Source: Polystyrenella longa (GTDB lineage Bacteria; Planctomycetota; Planctomycetia; Planctomycetales; Planctomycetaceae). Taken from it: a stretch of DNA of 64,000 nucleotides. Location: NCBI RefSeq assembly GCF_007750395.1, contig NZ_CP036281.1, positions 5,913,001-5,977,000 on the forward strand. The letters are read 5' to 3'. Below are positions 46,045-64,000 of the stretch, piece after piece (within the stretch, counting starts at the first letter, position 1; each line of letters opens with the position of its first letter). The notes under the pieces were generated by a model. The model was not told where the DNA came from. It made no database searches and worked only from the letters and a program-made list of their open reading frames with translations. The position numbers and the translations under genes were made by a program.

Positions 46045-46241
46045 GAAGCCTCTCTCCTGATGACTGTCTCTATGGGGCCTTAAAGATACGGTGAAAACCA
46101 AGGGTGCCGTTCGTGTCGGTACATGACCTGAAAAACTGGGAATGGCATTCCCCCGGTCCGCTCGATACGATAGTGACGACTCCCCTGTAGTGCTCCGATT
46201 GTACCCGATCCGTGATTTAAAATTAATGGTGACGCTTCTTC

Positions 46242-47330
46242 ATGACGACCCCAGACCAACCCACAACCGAAAGAAACCCCAATCCGAAGGACGCGCAAGA
46301 GGCGTTACAGGAACGGGAGGCCAAAGCACTGCAAGGTCTGGCGGCAGCTCAATCACGGTTGCGGACCGAGATCCGGAAGGTGATCATCGGTCAGGAGGAA
46401 GTCGTTGACCTGATGCTGACATCCCTGTTCAGCGGCGGACACTGCCTGCTGGTGGGAGTCCCTGGCTTGGCAAAGACGTTACTGGTCAGCACCATTGCCC
46501 AGGCATTGGAGCTTTCCTACCGACGAATCCAATTTACGCCCGACCTGATGCCCTCGGACATAACCGGAACGGACGTATTACAGGACGATCCGGAAACGGG
46601 TAAACGGAGTTTCCGGTTCATGAAAGGACCGTTGTTTACCAATATCCTGCTGGCCGATGAAATCAACCGGACGCCTCCCAAAACACAGGCGGCATTGCTC
46701 GAAGCAATGCAAGAACGCCATGTCAGCGTGGGCACCCATACCTACAAGCTACCTGATCCCTTCTTTGTACTGGCGACACAGAACCCGATTGAACAGGAAG
46801 GGACTTATCCTCTTCCCGAGGCGCAGCTCGATCGGTTTATGTATCAGATTACAGTTTCCTATCCGTCCGCCGCGGAAGAACTCCGAATTCTAAAACAAAC
46901 GACACGCGGCGCCCGTCCCGAACTCGATTGCGCGTTGACTGGGGCACAGGTGCTGGCTCTACAGGAAGTCGTACAGAAGATTCCAGTTCCCGAACATGTT
47001 TATGTCTATGCCCGCGATTTGATCCGGCAAACCCGACCACTGGAGGAGGGGGCTTACCCCTTTATTAAACAGTACGTTTCCTGGGGAGCCGGGCCTCGCG
47101 CGGGGCAGTTCCTCATTATGGGGGCCAAAGCCTACGCGCTCCTGCAGGGACGATTTCAAGTAACGACTAAAGATGTTCAGGCCATTGCACGACCTGTGCT
47201 CAGGCACCGCTTGGTGACGAATTTCCAAGCAGATAGTGACCGGATCCAACCAGACGACGTGGTTGCCATGTTACTTGAACAAGTTCAAGTCGAAGCGAAA
47301 GCCTCCGCCAAATCGCTACGGGATGTCTGA
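46242..47330 (+). CDS. MoxR-family AAA+ ATPase without its usual partners
   Basis: A 362-residue ATPase. Walker A is GVPGLAKT, Walker B is ILLADEINRTPPK, and the sensor segment contains ATQNPIEQEGTYPLPEAQLD with the MoxR-specific pattern. The C-terminal lid includes VSWGAGPRAGQFLIMGAKAY. MoxR ATPases act as chaperones for cofactor insertion or complex assembly, nearly always beside a DUF58 protein and von Willebrand factor A proteins. None follow here: the next 470 bp have no gene and the next gene is a histidine kinase. Confidence 0.9.
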   Translation: MTTPDQPTTERNPNPKDAQEALQEREAKALQGLAAAQSRLRTEIRKVIIGQEEVVDLMLTSLFSGGHCLLVGVPGLAKTLLVSTIAQALELSYRRIQFTPDLMPSDITGTDVLQDDPETGKRSFRFMKGPLFTNILLADEINRTPPKTQAALLEAMQERHVSVGTHTYKLPDPFFVLATQNPIEQEGTYPLPEAQLDRFMYQITVSYPSAAEELRILKQTTRGARPELDCALTGAQVLALQEVVQKIPVPEHVYVYARDLIRQTRPLEEGAYPFIKQYVSWGAGPRAGQFLIMGAKAYALLQGRFQVTTKDVQAIARPVLRHRLVTNFQADSDRIQPDDVVAMLLEQVQVEAKASAKSLRDV

Positions 47331-56781: not shown

Positions 56782-56929
56782 ATGGTTGATTGATACTGCT
56801 GAGACTTGGTTGTGGACGTCAATTCGACGCCTCAGAGCCTTTAGCAAGATATCGAGTGGAGGATACCGGAACAGAACATTTTTCAGGAAACTCTATTCTT
56901 ATAGGATCAAAGCGATATACGAAAAATAA

Positions 56930-56982
56930 AATCGGGGTTGAGGCATCGGAAATCGGGGGCAAAATCGGGATCAAATCTGGGT
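56930..56982 (+). repeat. Four short AAATC[G/T]GGG direct repeats
   Basis: AAATCGGG occurs at 56930, 56951 and 56963, followed by AAATCTGGG at 56974, all within 53 bp in one orientation. The spacing is 21, 12 and 11 bp. The array lies in non-coding DNA. Iteron-like arrays can bind replication or regulatory proteins, but the set is small. Confidence 0.45.
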
Positions 56983-57046
56983 CCTAGGGATTGGAGACGT
57001 AGTTTCAGAGGGGGGACGTGCATGCTTGGAATGGGCGTTATTTCCA

Positions 57047-57419
57047 CTACACCCGCATCTCTATTATTATTTCCTTTTTACTTGTAGACATCACGAACTC
57101 ATCATGTAGGCAAGCTCTGGCGTTGTCACTGTTCACCGTCGGGTATAGCGTGCTAGAGGGTGCTGTTTCTAGCATTGCTGCATCGTTCGTAAGGAGCTCT
57201 GCCCTAATCACCGCCTCTTCTGAAACCACGAGAGATTCATCCCAATTAACTGAATCAAATCCATTGAGCAGATTTAACCGCCTTGATGCATTTCTTGTGC
57301 ACAGAGAAATTTTCCCTCTTTGGCGTAATTTCGAAGCTCACGTGGTGACCCGTCCCAAGATGTGAGACGGCATGGAATAACGACCCACAAAAAACTGATC
57401 GTAGTCGTTTTGATGTCAT
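57047..57419 (-). pseudogene. Possible frameshifted hypothetical gene
   Basis: A 55-codon frame starts with an ATG at 57419 after an AGGT and includes GTGHHVSFEITPKRENFSV, ending in a TGA at 57255. About 10 bp earlier, the next frame takes over with NGFDSVNWDESLVVSEEAVI and LLTNDAAMLETAPSSTLYP, ending at 57047. Joined by one shift, they give a protein of about 125 residues. No family is recognised. The alternative is that both are chance frames, so the call is weak. Confidence 0.35.
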
Positions 57420-57501
57420 TTACCTGTGCCTGCCTAATCGATTTTAGTTCGAATTATTCAATTTATAAAACCCACCAGCAATGATGGGATGAGAGTATGA
57501 C

Positions 57502-58197
57502 TCAATCTATATTCATTGCAATGATAGTCATAATGAGTGGGACGAAGGCGATTCCCGTCCCACCAATAAGGCCCATCACGAAGGCGTCTTCTTCCATTGG
57601 ACCGCCCGATGTCATTACCTGTGCAATAACGAAACCTATAATGAAGCACCCGATAGTAAACAGCCATCCCCACTTTTTGAGTGATTTCCATTGAGTTTCG
57701 TCATCGGGAATGCCTATAGCCTCCCGAAAATCATAGATTGCTTCCCGAATTTGCTCTGTATTATGAAATACATGTAAATCCGGTATACCATCACCACTTA
57801 TGTCGTGCGATGTGGCGAAATCGATGCCGGAGTGAGAGTATTGATCTTCTGCTTCCAAATCAGATTCGTCGAACAGTACGCAACCACAAGAAGGGCAAGA
57901 AATAGCTCTAAAGGACACTAAATGGTCGCAATCAGGGCAGGGACATAGATTCGGATTGTTTAGGTTAACCAGCAGATTCTTTTCATTCAGCGATTGACCG
58001 TTCCCGGAATTCGATTCGAGAGAAGGCGGCTTTATCGAAAGACCCTTCACTTTTTCTGGGGGGTACCATTTCCCGTTTTCTCCCTTGCGAATCAGCGTAT
58101 CGCTGTCGATCCCCCCTTCATCAGCCAACCGACTTAGGTCACCAACGGACATAGGCCCGTAAACATGATGATTGATTTTTACGTACCACGAAGACAT
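57502..58197 (-). CDS. GYF_2 domain membrane protein with zinc ribbon
   Basis: A 231-residue protein with an ATG at 58197. Residues 1-50 are a GYF_2-type domain (SSWYVKINHHVYGPMSVGDL). A zinc ribbon with C-x-C-x2-C and C-x2-C cysteines follows at about 84-107 (LCPCPDCDHL, then CPSCGCVLFD). Two membrane helices lie at about 175-194 and 205-225. The pattern, GYF_2 then ribbon then membrane helices, is typical of planctomycete small proteins of unknown function. It is the second of three GYF_2 genes in the window. Confidence 0.8.
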   Translation of the reverse strand: MSSWYVKINHHVYGPMSVGDLSRLADEGGIDSDTLIRKGENGKWYPPEKVKGLSIKPPSLESNSGNGQSLNEKNLLVNLNNPNLCPCPDCDHLVSFRAISCPSCGCVLFDESDLEAEDQYSHSGIDFATSHDISGDGIPDLHVFHNTEQIREAIYDFREAIGIPDDETQWKSLKKWGWLFTIGCFIIGFVIAQVMTSGGPMEEDAFVMGLIGGTGIAFVPLIMTIIAMNID

Positions 58198-58853
58198 AAC
58201 TGTTCTCGCCACCTAAATATTTTTCGACATCTCACTAAGTTTATATCATACTTTACCATTTCAGAATCGCAGTGACACCATAGTTCGGTAGCAGATGATT
58301 TATTTTTTAACGTTCGTTGCAAAAGTATTGATAGCCGGAGCCTCGTGGCCGACTCGAAAGAAAACTAAGAATGTGTCTTGTTGCCCGTGGACCTCTAGGC
58401 AGAGATATGGTGGGCAGATTCCGGTGCTTATTTGGTGATCGCTGCTTTAATCTTTCGAGAAGAATGGGAGGTGTTCGAGGAAAGCCGGGACGAATAAGCC
58501 GCTGGTGGTCGTTCGACTACAGTCCGGCAGGAGATTAACGCCGTCCCCCCCCTTATCTTCTGAAACAGATCGACCCCGTTAGATATCTCAATTTCTCGCC
58601 CGCCGAATTTTCGAAATGCACTAGGAAAAGCGGTTTCAGATATGAACCGAGTTTTTTCCAAGGGGTACTATAAAGAAAGTGCAACGGAGTTGCATCAAAG
58701 GCGGGGGTGGGTGTCTGTTAAATACCCTTTTCGCTTGGAATTGTTGCATTTTTAGTTATGCAACATGGGTGTCGCAGTTCCACAATTGTCCCTGTCGTTG
58801 AGCAAAGAAAAAGAAGAACTCCCGTCCGTGGGAGCTCTTCTTTTGATACTTTG
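58198..58853. other. Intergenic region, no firm gene
   Basis: About 650 bp. A minus-strand frame at 58428-58661 of 78 codons has no ribosome binding site. Two inverted repeats on GTTGCA are present: TGCAAC-gga-GTTGCA near 58680 and TGTTGCAT at 58742-58749 with ATGCAACA at 58758-58765. Their role is unknown; one possibility is an attachment region. Confidence 0.4.
58811..58842 (-). terminator. Rho-independent terminator after the interrupted DUF6927-like gene
   Basis: On the minus strand a 13-bp stem with one mismatch (AAGAAGAGCTCCC / GGGAGTTCTTCTT) and a 6-base loop is followed by TTTCTTTGC. It begins 12 bp after the stop codon of the gene at 58854-59270, which supports that the gene was recently functional. 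Confidence 0.8.
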
Positions 58854-59270
58854 TCAAGCAGATTCGACCTGAGTATTACGTCGTTTCTGCCGACGTTGTT
58901 CGTGGTGAGAATGGAAGGTCTCTCGCCACTCCGCATTCCCTATTGGCACCATTCCAAGGTACTTCAGCGGGCATGAGTAATAGTACGGTCCCATTGACTC
59001 ATCCATATCCTTATAGCCCCACGCCCCTGATTGGTATTTCAGGAGGTCGCAAGCGATCCATCGCTCAGTCGGTTGAGTGACCTCTCCGTCCTTGTGAAAG
59101 GTCCGTTCCCAGACAGACCAAAGTGCTCCCGAGAATGCGTTGCCACGGTAACAGTGAGTAAGGCATGTTGACGTGACGACGATGCCGTCGTCTCTCGTTC
59201 TCTCCCAATCTTTGGTCCGCTCAGTGATCAGTTCTTTGCGTGTCCGATCGTTGGTAAATGTTCAACCCAT
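58854..59270 (-). pseudogene. DUF6927-like gene interrupted by TGA at codon 3
   Basis: The ATG at 59270 follows AGGAG at good spacing and is followed by GGT TGA ACA TTT. From the next codon a single frame of 135 codons runs without any lesion to a TGA at 58854, with FTNDRTRKELITERTKDWE, GALWSVWERTF, RWIACDLLKYQS, WGYKDMDESMGPYYYSCP and LGMVPIGNAEWRETF. The family (DUF6927, name from memory) usually begins M-G-W-x-F, so the third codon was almost surely TGG. There is no other ATG, GTG or TTG early in the frame. Other genes in the window use TGA as a stop. Function of the family is unknown; members are frequent on plasmids and integrated elements. Confidence 0.75.
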
Positions 59271-59325
59271 TTGGATGCTCCTATTTTCAAGTGACTTGTG
59301 TTGTTCGATACTTGAAAAGTAGGTG

Positions 59326-59613
59326 TTAGTACTCCTCGGGTAGGAGAATGCAGGTTGAAGAACGATCTGCTTCGGTGATGATCCAGATCTTCGTCCCATC
59401 TGATAGCTTGTAAGCGGAGAGAATGCGATACCCCTCTTTGACGGCTTCATCGTTTGTTGTCTTATCCTCTTCGTGGAGGTTTCCCCAGTCGCCTCCAACG
59501 TGACGGCTGAGCAACGAGCTCATGGTCTCATCTACTTTTTCAAAGGTGGTGATAGCTACGGGAGTGGCTACGACCTGTCCGAGGTTGAAAAGTTGTTTCG
59601 ATTCCTGAATCAT
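59326..59613 (-). CDS. Small accessory-region protein (common on mobile elements)
   Basis: A 95-residue protein with an ATG at 59613 behind AAAAGGAACG. It reads LGQVVATPVAITTFEKVDET, then LLSRHVGGDWGNLHEEDKT, and ends ITEADRSSTCILLPEEY. From memory this small family is common on plasmids and genomic islands and is often mislabelled as a restriction subunit, for which the length gives no support. It lies 56 bp upstream of the interrupted DUF6927-like gene, a frequent pairing. No function is known. Confidence 0.82.
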   Translation of the reverse strand: MIQESKQLFNLGQVVATPVAITTFEKVDETMSSLLSRHVGGDWGNLHEEDKTTNDEAVKEGYRILSAYKLSDGTKIWIITEADRSSTCILLPEEY

Positions 59614-59801
59614 GTGACGTTCCTTTTTGTGAAGGTGCGGTGTTAAGAACGTCTGTGGGGAGGGTGTCATAGATTGTCGCAAGAAACAGATGGTTGCTAC
59701 TTTGTTTTAACGAGCTCTCTTATATTGAGATGTGTACGTACGATCTGTATGATCTGTGTTTGAAGTGGCTTGTAATGGCATCTTTCTGAGGGTAAGGGGC
59801 A

Positions 59802-60521
59802 ATGAAAAAACATTGGTACTACGAGTTTATGGGGCAAGTAATTGGGCCAGCAGATGCCCACGAAATCCGAGTCCTCTCATACAAGGGAGTGATTTCCGTC
59901 GATACCATGCTCCGAAAGGGCGTTGACGGAAAGTGGGTACCTGCTGACTATGTTAAAGGTCTATTTCCATTGCCTCCTCAAACAGAGCAGCCGGCATCTT
60001 CAAAAGAACAGAAGATTCAAGATGCCCCAGTTGATTTGACGAACGTTCAACCAAACCATGTCATAAACCGTAAGACTAATAGTGAGTCGGATGAATCTGC
60101 GATTCTCACGCCGGAAGAACGAGCGGAACTTCTGCTTCAATTCAAGCACGACATGAACAAGATTCAAGATGTCAAAGACGTCGATGTTAAACCTGCCCTT
60201 ATAATATTTGCTGCGGTATTCGTAATGGTGTTCGTAGTAAGCCTCATCTCTCGAATCTCAGATCCAAGAACGAAAATATCCCCAGAGCCGACAGGAAGAG
60301 GTTTCACAACTGAGCGAATTGATCCCAGAACTTCAGGTTGGTCAGAACAATTTGGGCGTTCTGAGGAATGGGTTCGTGAAACTACCGATTCCGCCGACAC
60401 AGAAGTTGAAGCTCATCTCAAGATGAACCGAGCACTTATCATGGAAGGTGCGAGATTCAATGTTGAAACAGGAGTATGGTCGAGGGCGGATTACGAAGAA
60501 TGGACAGGAGAGTCCTACTAG
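59802..60521 (+). CDS. GYF_2 domain protein with one membrane helix
   Basis: A 239-residue protein with an ATG behind AGGGGCA. Residues 3-55 form a GYF_2-type domain (KHWYYEFMGQVIGPADAHEI, then GKWVPADYVKGLFPL). A polar linker follows, then one membrane helix at about 132-153 (ALIIFAAVFVMVFVVSLISR). The C-terminal 85 residues are charged, with a tail GVWSRADYEEWTGESY. The orientation and function are unknown. It is convergent with the integrase gene, which ends 22 bp away. Confidence 0.78.
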   Translation: MKKHWYYEFMGQVIGPADAHEIRVLSYKGVISVDTMLRKGVDGKWVPADYVKGLFPLPPQTEQPASSKEQKIQDAPVDLTNVQPNHVINRKTNSESDESAILTPEERAELLLQFKHDMNKIQDVKDVDVKPALIIFAAVFVMVFVVSLISRISDPRTKISPEPTGRGFTTERIDPRTSGWSEQFGRSEEWVRETTDSADTEVEAHLKMNRALIMEGARFNVETGVWSRADYEEWTGESY

Positions 60522-60543
60522 AACCTGAGTGATTACTACGAAT

Positions 60544-61455
60544 TCAATACGCCAACCTCTCAGACGCCTCCGCCAATTGCCCCTCAGTCCGCTGGACGTA
60601 TCTTTTGGTTGTGTTTAGATTCTCATGCCCAAGGATCTGGGCAAGCGAAACGAGATCTCCCGGATTGTCTTCGAGAAACTGATGAGCCATCGTATGACGA
60701 AGTAAATGTGGATGAATGGCGACGCCACACAGAGCGGCATATTTATCACAAAGGTTCCTCACTCCCCGATCCGTTAATGGTCCCCTTTCTCCGACGAAGA
60801 TCAACGAGGTGTCTATTGGTGGTCGCATTTCTAGCCATTCCTCAATTGCTCGGCGTGCAGGTAAAGGTAGCGGGACTGTTCTCTGCTTGTTCCCCTTTCC
60901 CTGACGGAAAACGACTGAACCGGTTCTCTCTCCGATCATCACGTCATCGAGTTCCAGATTTACCAAGTCGCCAACACGACAACCAGTATAAAGAAACAGG
61001 TTGAAGATAGCTTTGGATCGGGTGTCTTCTCGGAGTTCCACCTCTCGAAGGAGTCGCCGTACCTCGGATCGACTCAGCCCCTTTGGAGCGAGAGCCTGTC
61101 GCTTTAGTTCCTTAACAGGTGTTGCTGGATTGGAATGAAGGTGTCCATTTACCACCAGCCATTGCAGCCATCGACGGATCGACACAAGGCAGCGGTTAAC
61201 CGTAGCGACCGCTTGCCCTTTCTCTCGACGAAGGTGGTCCCTAAAGTCAGAAACATCCCGCACTGTGATCCGTTTTAATGCGAAGGACTCCTGATTGGTA
61301 CTTGAGAACCATTGGGCAAACTTTCTGATGTCTTGGATGATCGCCCTGACCGTATTTGGGGAGAAATCGTGTTCTGCAATGAACCGCTGGATGAGCTCCT
61401 CTTCCGCAGTTCCGGTAAGGATATTCTGAAAAACATTATTGCCCGAATTCTTCAC
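60544..61455 (-). CDS. Tyrosine recombinase (phage-type integrase)
   Basis: A 303-residue recombinase with a GTG start behind GGAGATAAG. Residues 20-105 are the SAM-like core-binding domain. The catalytic domain holds Arg160 (LYTGCRVGDLVNLELDD), a lysine near 180 (QGKGNKQR), His250 and Arg253 (HPHLLRHTMAHQF), His277 (QILGHENLNTTKRYVQRT) and the nucleophile Tyr286. It is complete and probably active. It is the last gene of a minus-strand run with an HTH protein and a RuvB-like ATPase, and so is likely the integrase of an integrated element rather than XerC/XerD. Confidence 0.94.
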   Translation of the reverse strand: MKNSGNNVFQNILTGTAEEELIQRFIAEHDFSPNTVRAIIQDIRKFAQWFSSTNQESFALKRITVRDVSDFRDHLRREKGQAVATVNRCLVSIRRWLQWLVVNGHLHSNPATPVKELKRQALAPKGLSRSEVRRLLREVELREDTRSKAIFNLFLYTGCRVGDLVNLELDDVMIGERTGSVVFRQGKGNKQRTVPLPLPARRAIEEWLEMRPPIDTSLIFVGERGPLTDRGVRNLCDKYAALCGVAIHPHLLRHTMAHQFLEDNPGDLVSLAQILGHENLNTTKRYVQRTEGQLAEASERLAY

Positions 61456-61503
61456 GACTTATCTCCACATATTAGACACAAAGTTGACATTGAATTGCTC
61501 AAA

Positions 61504-61533
61504 CTGGGGCGATAATGGTAGTTATCACCCCAG
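61504..61533. promoter_or_regulatory. Strong inverted repeat across the HTH stop codon
   Basis: CTGGGG-c-GATAA (61504-61515) mirrors TTATC-a-CCCCAG (61522-61533) around a 6-base centre. It covers the last codons and stop of the HTH gene and lies 49 bp before the integrase start. Without a T run it is not a good terminator. It may be an operator for the HTH protein or an RNA hairpin that lowers integrase expression relative to the upstream genes. Confidence 0.6.
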
Positions 61534-61998
61534 ATTATCGGTCGAATCCTGACGCTTTAGATGCAGGAATACTGTCTGCAAAATAATTGACTCATCAGTT
61601 TGGAAGGTCCCGTTCGGGAAGCATTCAGCAACTGCTTGCTCAACGTCCTTCCCTTTGACATTTGTCAAACCTAGGGATGCTAGATCATTGATCAGCTCAT
61701 TGTACTTGGTCGATTGAGTAGGTTGTTTCACTCTCTTTGGTTTAGAAGTAGGTGTCGCTGTCCCTCTCGAATAGAAGAGAATCGGCTTTCCATTGACGCC
61801 GCAGTTCCGACGCCGGACCTCAACACATATCTCTTGAAGATCTTCTGGATAGAACGGTCTTTTGTTGTCCAAACGATAAAGCGGAGATGGGAAAACACCT
61901 TCCTTGACCAACTGGTAAAATCGGGCTCGACTCAATCGACAAATGCGTGCCATTTCAGAGACGGAAATGATAGTCTTTGTTCGTAATTCGACACTCAT
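61525..61998 (-). CDS. HTH (excisionase/AlpA-like) protein of the integrase module
   Basis: A 157-residue protein with an ATG at 61998 behind AAGGA. Residues 10-65 form a MerR/AlpA-like winged helix (ISVSEMARICRLSRARFYQL, then FPSPLYRLDNKRPFYPEDLQ). The rest is basic and then helical. AlpA-like proteins control excision and integrase genes, and the order here (HTH gene directly before the integrase) fits. The C-terminal 75 residues are not typical of small excisionases. Confidence 0.8.
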   Translation of the reverse strand: MSVELRTKTIISVSEMARICRLSRARFYQLVKEGVFPSPLYRLDNKRPFYPEDLQEICVEVRRRNCGVNGKPILFYSRGTATPTSKPKRVKQPTQSTKYNELINDLASLGLTNVKGKDVEQAVAECFPNGTFQTDESIILQTVFLHLKRQDSTDNLG

Positions 61999-62019
61999 TA
62001 GACAGAATTCCTTCACAAA

Positions 62020-62964
62020 TTAGACAGAGTTTGTACGCAGTTCGGACAAGTGATCCTGTCCAGATTGTGTCAAAATGCGTTTCCCCTGATCGTCTTTCGT
62101 GATCAGTCCGCTTCGTATCAGGAAGCTTTCAGTGACATTGCTCACTGTTCTTGTGGGGAGTCCCAATAGGGAGGCGACCACGTTTAATCTTGTGGCTCCA
62201 TTACTAACGATTTCCAGATATTTCTGCTCCGTGACGTCGAGTCCGAGATGATCGATTCCCTCCAATTCACATGCTCGAAAGAGATGATCAGGAACGATGT
62301 GATGTTCACCCTCTGAACGGCAAACTCGGTGACACGACTGGAGCAGCCTAATAACAATACGGGGTGTCCCCCTTGACCGGATTGCGATCAATGGAAAGAT
62401 GGTGTTTTCAACAGACCAGCCCAGCGAGAGAGCTCTTTGTTTGCATAAGGTGAAGAGTTCGTCGTCTGAGTAGTATTCGTAACGCAGCGTTAATCTCATG
62501 CGATCTCTGAGCGGTTGCAACAGGCAATGTTCATCGGTAGTTGCAAGAAGCAAAGTGAAGTCTGCAAGAGCGATGCTCTTGGGAGACTTCCCACCACTAA
62601 CGATGACCTTCCGCTTGTCCAATGCAAGGTACAGGGCGGTTTGGTATTCCTTTTTGAGTTCGTGTGCCTCATCGATGAACACAATCGATTTGTCTCTTGC
62701 CGAAAGCAGGACGGCATTCAGATCAGAAGGTGTCGTAATTGATTGTCCTAATACCTCATGGAAATCACTCGCCATCTCAGAGGCGATGACCTGTGCTAGA
62801 GCGGTTTTCCCCAAGCCGGGACCACCCGTTAAAAGCGAATGGTCGAAAATCTTTCCATCCATTTGGCATGCATCTAACGCCACGGTGACTTGATCGATCA
62901 CCCTCGTCTGTCCGATGAGATGGGCGAGAGAAGAAGGTGAACTTGATCTGATATCGTTATTCAT
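62020..62964 (-). CDS. RuvB-like AAA+ ATPase in an integrase module
   Basis: A 314-residue ATPase with an ATG at 62964 behind a perfect AAGGAG. The Walker A motif is GGPGLGKT (residues 47-54), Walker B is IVFIDEAHEL, sensor 1 is LLLATTDEHCLLQPLRDRM, and the lid contains IAIRSRGTPRIVIRLLQSC. The order of these elements matches RuvB, the branch-migration motor of Holliday junction resolution. The C-terminus (about 255-314) is a winged helix. It is a second RuvB-type gene outside any ruvABC context, probably serving recombination of the element. It is not the housekeeping gene. Confidence 0.88.
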   Translation of the reverse strand: MNNDIRSSSPSSLAHLIGQTRVIDQVTVALDACQMDGKIFDHSLLTGGPGLGKTALAQVIASEMASDFHEVLGQSITTPSDLNAVLLSARDKSIVFIDEAHELKKEYQTALYLALDKRKVIVSGGKSPKSIALADFTLLLATTDEHCLLQPLRDRMRLTLRYEYYSDDELFTLCKQRALSLGWSVENTIFPLIAIRSRGTPRIVIRLLQSCHRVCRSEGEHHIVPDHLFRACELEGIDHLGLDVTEQKYLEIVSNGATRLNVVASLLGLPTRTVSNVTESFLIRSGLITKDDQGKRILTQSGQDHLSELRTNSV

Positions 62965-63012
62965 TTGTTTTCTCCTTGTAGGATATATAGGTGTCAATAT
63001 TTTTGTGAGGTG

Positions 63013-63612
63013 TCAAGGTGTGGCGACGAACTGTAGGTCATCGAACGCTTCCCGCAGTTCATTCTCATCTGGATATCCACCTTGATCGTCCCGGTTTTCG
63101 ATTGCTGACGGATTGTTGTCTGAGAGCCAGCAGTAGACTTTATCTTCCCATCCCTCAGGAAGGTCGTATTCGTCCTTTAGTCGCCTCGCAGCGTCCTCCA
63201 GATTGGCGAAGGTGGCTTCTGTTTCCCGTTCGCTGTAGTCGTCCTCGTCAAGGATAGGGTAGGTGTCCATTCTCTCCTGCAATTCGAGGTAAACCTTGAA
63301 TGCTTCGGTGATTTGACCATGTCTGATGACCCGAATAGAGAAGCCATCGACGTGCCCTACTGCCCAATGGTTGTGCGATTCGAAAATCACGTCAGGGTCG
63401 TCTGCTTCTGTGAAAGGTGTCATCTCTCTATCGATAACGGATGCGTTCGACAGATCGAGCAGCCCGCTGTCTCGATGGTGGGTGTAGATAATCGCCCAGT
63501 TATCAGCGTCATCTAGTTCTTCAAGTCGGTCCCAAATGAAGCAATCAAATCGTTTCCAGTTGCCAGCATATTGTTCAACAGCTTCTTCGTGTGATTGGTC
63601 ACAAATGGTCAT
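63013..63612 (-). CDS. Hypothetical protein of the accessory module
   Basis: A 199-residue acidic protein whose ATG at 63612 follows AAAGGAACG. It reads NWAIIYTHHRDSGLLDLSNA, HWAVGHVDGFSIRVIRHGQI and LKDEYDLPEGWEDKVYCWLS. From memory the family is widespread on plasmids and integrated elements and remains uncharacterised. It is the first gene of the minus-strand run, 48 bp before the RuvB-like gene, so likely in the same transcript. Confidence 0.82.
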   Translation of the reverse strand: MTICDQSHEEAVEQYAGNWKRFDCFIWDRLEELDDADNWAIIYTHHRDSGLLDLSNASVIDREMTPFTEADDPDVIFESHNHWAVGHVDGFSIRVIRHGQITEAFKVYLELQERMDTYPILDEDDYSERETEATFANLEDAARRLKDEYDLPEGWEDKVYCWLSDNNPSAIENRDDQGGYPDENELREAFDDLQFVATP

Positions 63613-63885
63613 CAGTGCGTTCCTTTCGATGGATTGTTGATCGTTATGAACGCTTACGAGGTGTCCTTTCTGGACTTCATATGTTGATCAGAGAAAGGAA
63701 GCGAATATTACGCAGAGAACATTCCTCGAAGTCTCACAGTTCAGTTACTGGCGGATCGTAAAGGCAAAGCTGTTGTGAACCATTGGAAAACCGGTATTTG
63801 ATTGACTTGGTTTGGTTGAGTCTCGAAAATGCTATTGTTCGGTATCCGAAATACGACAAAGACTTCTTGACCTAAGGAAAGCTTG

Positions 63886-64000
63886 ATGAAACGACTCTTA
63901 TTCGCTTTTGTGCTTCTGGTTGCGGTGGGGCAAAATGCAGTAGCCGAATCGCTAAACGTGATGACGTGGAATATTCGTTACAACAATTCAAACGACGGAA
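63886..64000 (+). CDS. Start of an exported endonuclease/exonuclease/phosphatase-family protein
   Basis: The ATG at 63886 follows AAGGAAAGC. The first residues are a signal peptide (KRLLFAFVLLVAVGQNAVA), and then SLNVMTWNIRYNNSNDG, the classic beginning of the EEP fold with the metal-ligand asparagine. The window ends after 38 residues. This family cleaves phosphodiesters in DNA, inositol phosphates or phospholipids; only the fold can be told here. It marks the right border of the accessory region. Confidence 0.85.
   Translation, partial: MKRLLFAFVLLVAVGQNAVAESLNVMTWNIRYNNSNDG

Follow-up and report, generated by a model that had tools for sequence, protein, structure and literature searches.

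Why should a gene for a RuvB-like ATPase lie in one run with the gene for a site-specific recombinase, given that RuvB is familiar mainly as the partner of RuvA in RuvAB? The question is raised by four consecutive minus-strand open reading frames (ORFs) in the stretch of Polystyrenella longa DNA analyzed here (the window; 64,000 nucleotides, C1:5913001-5977000 of a closed 6.13 Mb genome), which an earlier note had read as genes for a hypothetical protein, a second RuvB-like ATPase, a helix-turn-helix (HTH) protein, and a complete integrase.

The gene run and its RuvB-family ATPase

The ORF listing agreed with the earlier placement of the run at 60544-63612, and the gaps of 48, 21, and 69 bp are correct given the conserved ATGs of the ATPase (62964) and HTH (61998) genes (Table 1). 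The integrase (Int) is indeed complete, with the catalytic residues R-K-HxxR-H-Y kept in 24 relatives. The same gene order had been proposed as something to look for in other planctomycete genomes; with the HTH protein as bait, the order RuvBx-HTH-recombinase (RuvBx being the ATPase) turned up in about 27 loci, almost all of them planctomycete, and a few short contigs labeled as non-planctomycete may be misbinned. Because the order recurs in this many loci, and thus in many genomes rather than in this one only, the four-gene run is far beyond chance, and RuvBx-HTH-recombinase is a conserved module. The gene distances of the module genes correlated, most strongly for RuvBx and HTH (0.81) and less so for HTH and Int (0.70). 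A second copy in the same genome (copy 2) encodes RuvBx, HTH, and Int proteins that are 94%, 89%, and 84% identical to those of the window copy, and the two copies share a backbone but differ in their neighboring cargo. Recurrent neighbors of the module include ArdC, the hypothetical protein of the run, and a pair of small proteins; GYF_2-domain proteins (57502-58212 and 59802-60521 in the window) recur beside modules in several genomes. The RuvBx stop codon and the HTH ORF lie in one frame, usually as V-stop-F (window 61998-62026; L012, L026-L028, L030, L033, L034, and L037), an arrangement that could possibly reflect coupling or read-through.

Table 1. Positions in the window of the module, its cis sites, and the surrounding island features
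Feature	Position	Strand	
Simple (Xer-like) tyrosine recombinase Int, 303 aa, without arm-binding domain, catalytic residues intact	60544..61455	-	
Pair of TGTC direct repeats at 11 bp spacing, TGTCAACTTTG TGTCTAATATG, presumably bound by HTH	61466..61489	-	
dif-like inverted repeat, 28 bp, 11 bp arms and 6 bp center, TGGGGTGATAA CTACCA TTATCGCCCCA, presumed Int crossover site	61505..61532	.	
Putative AlpA/MerR-type winged-HTH protein with C-terminal three-helix domain, conserved ATG 61998	61525..62016	-	
TGTCTAAT motif at HTH start	61997..62004	-	
TGTCTAAT motif at RuvBx stop; RuvBx and HTH genes share frame	62019..62026	-	
RuvBx, RuvB-fold AAA+ ATPase of distinct clade, conserved ATG 62964	62020..62997	-	
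Hypothetical protein, in part phrog_4313-like, conserved in several islands upstream of RuvBx	63013..63612	-	
Small LFNLGQVVATP-type protein, recurrent module neighbor	59326..59682	-	
Shortened remnant of recurrent island protein (142 aa in copy 2)	58854..59006	-	
Left copy of 19 bp island direct repeat ATCGAGTGGAGGATACCGG	56851..56869	.	
In-window part of 19.3 kb island (entire island C1:5969851-5989122)	56851..64000	.	

The description of the ATPase as RuvB-like was well founded. RuvB_N, AAA_lid_4, and RuvB_C matched above the Pfam cut-offs, so that the N, lid, and C winged-helix domains of RuvB are all present, and the Walker, sensor, and arginine-finger positions are retained. Membership of an established non-RuvB family, which the earlier note had named as evidence against its reading, was not found; structure comparison gave Z 34.4 to Thermotoga maritima RuvB over 294 residues, with the next non-RuvB match at 19.6. 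Because it scored 225 and 208 bits against NCBIfam RuvB equivalog models whose cut-offs are 282 and 299 bits, respectively, RuvBx is, by sequence, a RuvB-family paralog and not RuvB itself. In a set of 392 genomes from the phylum, scores of 411-502 bits were confined to 12 proteins from 8 genomes, all others reaching at most 264, and RuvBx was present twice in 4 of these 8 carriers. RuvBx thus shares the three-domain fold and ATPase motifs of canonical RuvB but differs from the RuvAB system in forming a separate clade (split from ordinary RuvB at 100/100 in the tree), in being extra to the host RuvB, which is encoded elsewhere (C1:2134904-2135824), and in having an HTH partner, with no RuvA in the module. 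The hairpin region of the window RuvBx is shorter than in canonical RuvB. In plasmid and phage collections, only RuvB-type matches of low identity were obtained (about 31-35% among the matches listed). The word "second" in the earlier description does not hold, as the nearest other RuvB-like ORF in the window (46233-47327), presumably the one taken there as the first, encodes a MoxR-type AAA_3 ATPase.

Two further arrangements were observed. In Phycisphaerae-type modules, a weakly RuvBx-like AAA gene is convergent on Int (L083:7434-8183, L084:12486-13259, and L046:15724-16482) and possibly encodes a partner subunit. At L025:1468-2920, a RuvB-like ATPase with a degraded Walker B motif and an HTH gene adjoin a VWA-like gene, with no recombinase nearby.

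Two kinds of cis sites and two kinds of recombinases

Structural matches of the HTH protein included Pukovnik Xis (Z 5.8), RdfS (Z 5.4), and MerR proteins (up to Z 7.5), and its Phage_AlpA match remained below the Pfam cut-off. A resemblance of its C-terminus to RuvA domain III, suggested by eye, was not supported (hhalign probability against RuvA, 1.3%), and the listed families with E values up to 10 did not include RuvA_C; weak calmodulin matches of the C-terminal part were taken as chance. The stretch from the palindrome to the recombinase gene contains TGTCYAMTT repeats, which are often spaced by 11 bp. A spacing of exactly 11 bp was found for TGTCH pairs in 11 of 21 loci (expectation for 11 or 22 bp, 0.1), and across spacings of 6-30 bp in these 21 loci TGTC pairs were otherwise seen only at 22 and 23 bp. 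The HTH protein probably binds these repeats.

The palindrome, which follows the HTH stop codon, is an inverted repeat of 11-6-11 bp whose arms vary yet stay complementary, with compensatory change in 9 of 11 pairs and the observed values reached in 0 of 500 shuffles; the arm match in several individual loci is no better than in random windows. The arms covaried with Int (Mantel 0.39, P 0.005), whereas no covariation was found with RuvBx (Mantel 0.11, P 0.24) and no clear covariation with the HTH protein (Mantel 0.21, P 0.06). Int falls in the simple, Xer-like recombinase class (described in PMC8138268), and its palindrome has the geometry of dif, with 11 bp arms and a 6 bp center (PMC5357621). 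We consider it likely that Int acts at this 28 bp site. The search yielded a single intact core site per locus and no second dif-like site at the element ends. In genome G287, the Int genes of two modules (L083:8192-9139 and L084) share 88% DNA identity while their RuvBx and HTH are far more diverged, which points to an exchange of Int; the Int gene of L084 is interrupted by an insertion.

The same sites could be read as transcriptional elements, with the HTH protein, perhaps together with RuvBx as an AAA+ co-regulator, only regulating transcription of the recombinase, the repeats serving as operators, and the palindrome being an operator or an RNA hairpin. The repeats do lie just upstream of the recombinase start, in the promoter region and near the HTH start, and the HTH domain has structural matches to MerR and excisionase proteins. 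However, such regulation leaves unexplained both a complete RuvB motor and palindrome arms that track Int rather than the HTH protein, and the palindrome itself has the 11-6-11 geometry of dif with no T-run terminator. We therefore regard this explanation as unlikely.

At two loci, one of them a single MAG contig, a serine recombinase takes the place of Int. A 199 aa serine resolvase follows RuvBx-HTH at L119, where the TGTC repeat motif occurs twice in the HTH-resolvase gap and nowhere else in 20 kb; at L047, the gene after the pair encodes a 498 aa protein whose sequence, on inspection, suggests a large serine recombinase, and TGTCTAATTT is kept. The palindrome is absent from both. Because these loci have the repeats but no palindrome, the pattern assigns the TGTC repeats to the HTH protein and the palindrome to Int. 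It also shows RuvBx-HTH to be independent of Holliday-junction chemistry.

This exchange also bears on the idea, put forward in the earlier note, that RuvBx branch-migrates a Holliday junction made by the tyrosine recombinase. The RuvB fold and motifs of RuvBx and its close linkage with a tyrosine recombinase whose catalytic residues are intact are in keeping with this idea, and its premise of a RuvB-family ATPase stands. The same RuvBx-HTH pair, however, also accompanies serine recombinases, and tyrosine recombinases normally need no branch migration because their crossover region is 6-8 bp. As the serine reaction proceeds without a Holliday junction, dedicated Holliday-junction processing is probably not the function of RuvBx; the two serine-recombinase loci, few as they are, weaken that part of the proposal, and we judge branch migration to be quite unlikely as its role.

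Islands that carry the module

Flanking direct repeats, which the earlier note had suggested seeking, were found. The window copy lies in an island at tRNA-Ala(GGC) bounded by direct repeats identical to the tRNA 3' end, the right copy being located beyond the window in the tRNA itself (L015:6104-6122), and the left and right flanks of the island are joined as an empty site in two genomes of the same genus. In six further contexts, RuvBx is enclosed by direct repeats of a tRNA or tmRNA 3' end, delimiting islands of 36-47 kb: tmRNA in G408, G355, and G378 (13-17 bp, the shorter repeats being weaker evidence), tRNA-Ala in G247 (48 bp), tRNA-Gly in G287 (30 bp), and tRNA-Glu in G127 (26 bp). No empty site was found for these six islands. 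An empty-site search in genus g12 aligned only the antiporter gene; no enclosing tRNA/tmRNA repeat was found in G274, G355b, and G408b, and the right end of the copy 2 island has only a weak 16/18 candidate. Genes in the flanks include those for Gabija GajA/GajB, a DRT-type reverse transcriptase, type I methyltransferases, and a PDC-S36 protein. In copy 2, a Pnkp-RlaP-ATP-grasp-RlaP-Hen1 RNA-repair operon (L012:2568-9257) separates Int from the small LGQ gene. ArsR-, ArsC-, ArsD-, and ArsA-like genes, which read as an arsenic-resistance set, directly adjoin the module Int of G274 (L082:7876-10919).

About 200 bp from the att site of the window island lies the gene of a 520 aa protein without Pfam hits, P0001 (L015:4340-5902, minus strand; window coordinate 74340-75902). 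The alignment of its family with the module Int spans both recombinase domains (E 4e-4, with a low hhalign probability of 36%), and at 16 of 25 loci the family member adjoins a tRNA-Ala or tmRNA gene. In P0001 and its homologs (L146-L169), the box I arginine is not conserved (LNCGFGxAE), and the R and H positions, and mostly those of K and Y, are. P0001 appears to be a very diverged tyrosine-recombinase-like protein. Other tyrosine recombinases lie near one end of the G247 and G127 islands, and the edge gene of the G287 island is a candidate recombinase by position and N-terminal appearance only. At the edge of each delimited island there is a different recombinase or a candidate for one, and the module is internal. 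In the window island, 3.7 kb separate the module Int from the nearer end; in the other delimited islands, its distance from either end is about 10 kb or more. Because it is internal, Int is unlikely to be the island integrase; the module is very probably an island component distinct from the integrase. The earlier claim of a mobile module thus holds for a conserved module within mobile DNA, but not for this integrase integrating or moving the element, given the separate recombinase-like protein or candidate at the edge. A smaller mobile element within the islands, consisting of the module and mobilized by its own recombinase, would fit the two copies in one genome with a common backbone and different neighboring cargo, as well as the two copies in 4 of 8 carrier genomes, but is very improbable, as integrated copies have the presumed crossover site whole, not split, between HTH and Int, and a second core site was found at no edge.

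A proposed motor for site-specific recombination

We take as established the conserved gene order, the RuvB fold and ATPase motifs, the two kinds of cis sites, the tRNA/tmRNA-bounded location, and the exchange for serine recombinases. Our preferred reading, to which we give about an even chance, is that RuvBx, the HTH protein, the recombinase, and the cis sites form an island-borne site-specific recombination module in which an HTH-loaded motor powers or gates the recombinase. The HTH protein would bind the TGTCYAMTT repeats and, by conjecture, take the place of RuvA and load a ring of RuvBx onto the DNA next to the crossover site; using ATP to pump DNA, RuvBx would then power or gate the neighboring recombinase, by analogy with FtsK for Xer at dif. 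The prospects that RuvBx is the motor of the recombination reaction of the module are likewise evenly balanced. The purpose would most plausibly be the resolution of island multimers or cointegrates, which is the weakest step and is offered tentatively. With similar reserve, RuvBx-HTH could be a recombinase-independent, sequence-addressed motor, in which the HTH protein on short repeats loads a RuvB ring beside a tyrosine or a serine recombinase and so controls the reaction.

Known systems resemble the module in part. In Tn4430-type TnpI and its internal resolution site, a tyrosine recombinase lies beside an inverted-repeat core with direct repeats nearby, all of which the module shares; however, the module has no transposase, its repeats go with the HTH protein rather than the recombinase, and an AAA+ motor is present. 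Gamma-mobile-trio elements combine a tyrosine recombinase, fixed partner genes, and defense cargo, as does the module, whereas Int matches the GmtY model at only 22 of 340 bits, the partners differ, and integration is by other enzymes. In XerS/difSL and XerH/difH, the hexameric DNA translocase FtsK governs recombination (PMC5357621). These systems and the module both have a simple recombinase of about 300 aa beside a dif-like site of its own (arms of 11 bp, center of 6 bp); the module, however, is island-borne, has a dedicated RuvB-family motor and an HTH protein instead of FtsK, and admits serine enzymes in place of its recombinase. A search of open-access papers gave no earlier account of a module that joins RuvB to a recombinase.

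The module defines a family of planctomycete islands with defense, RNA-repair, and metal-resistance genes. If the proposed mechanism is true, a RuvB paralog with a sequence-specific partner and exchangeable recombinases would represent the recruitment of an AAA+ protein to site-specific recombination outside FtsK-Xer, in a compact and testable system.
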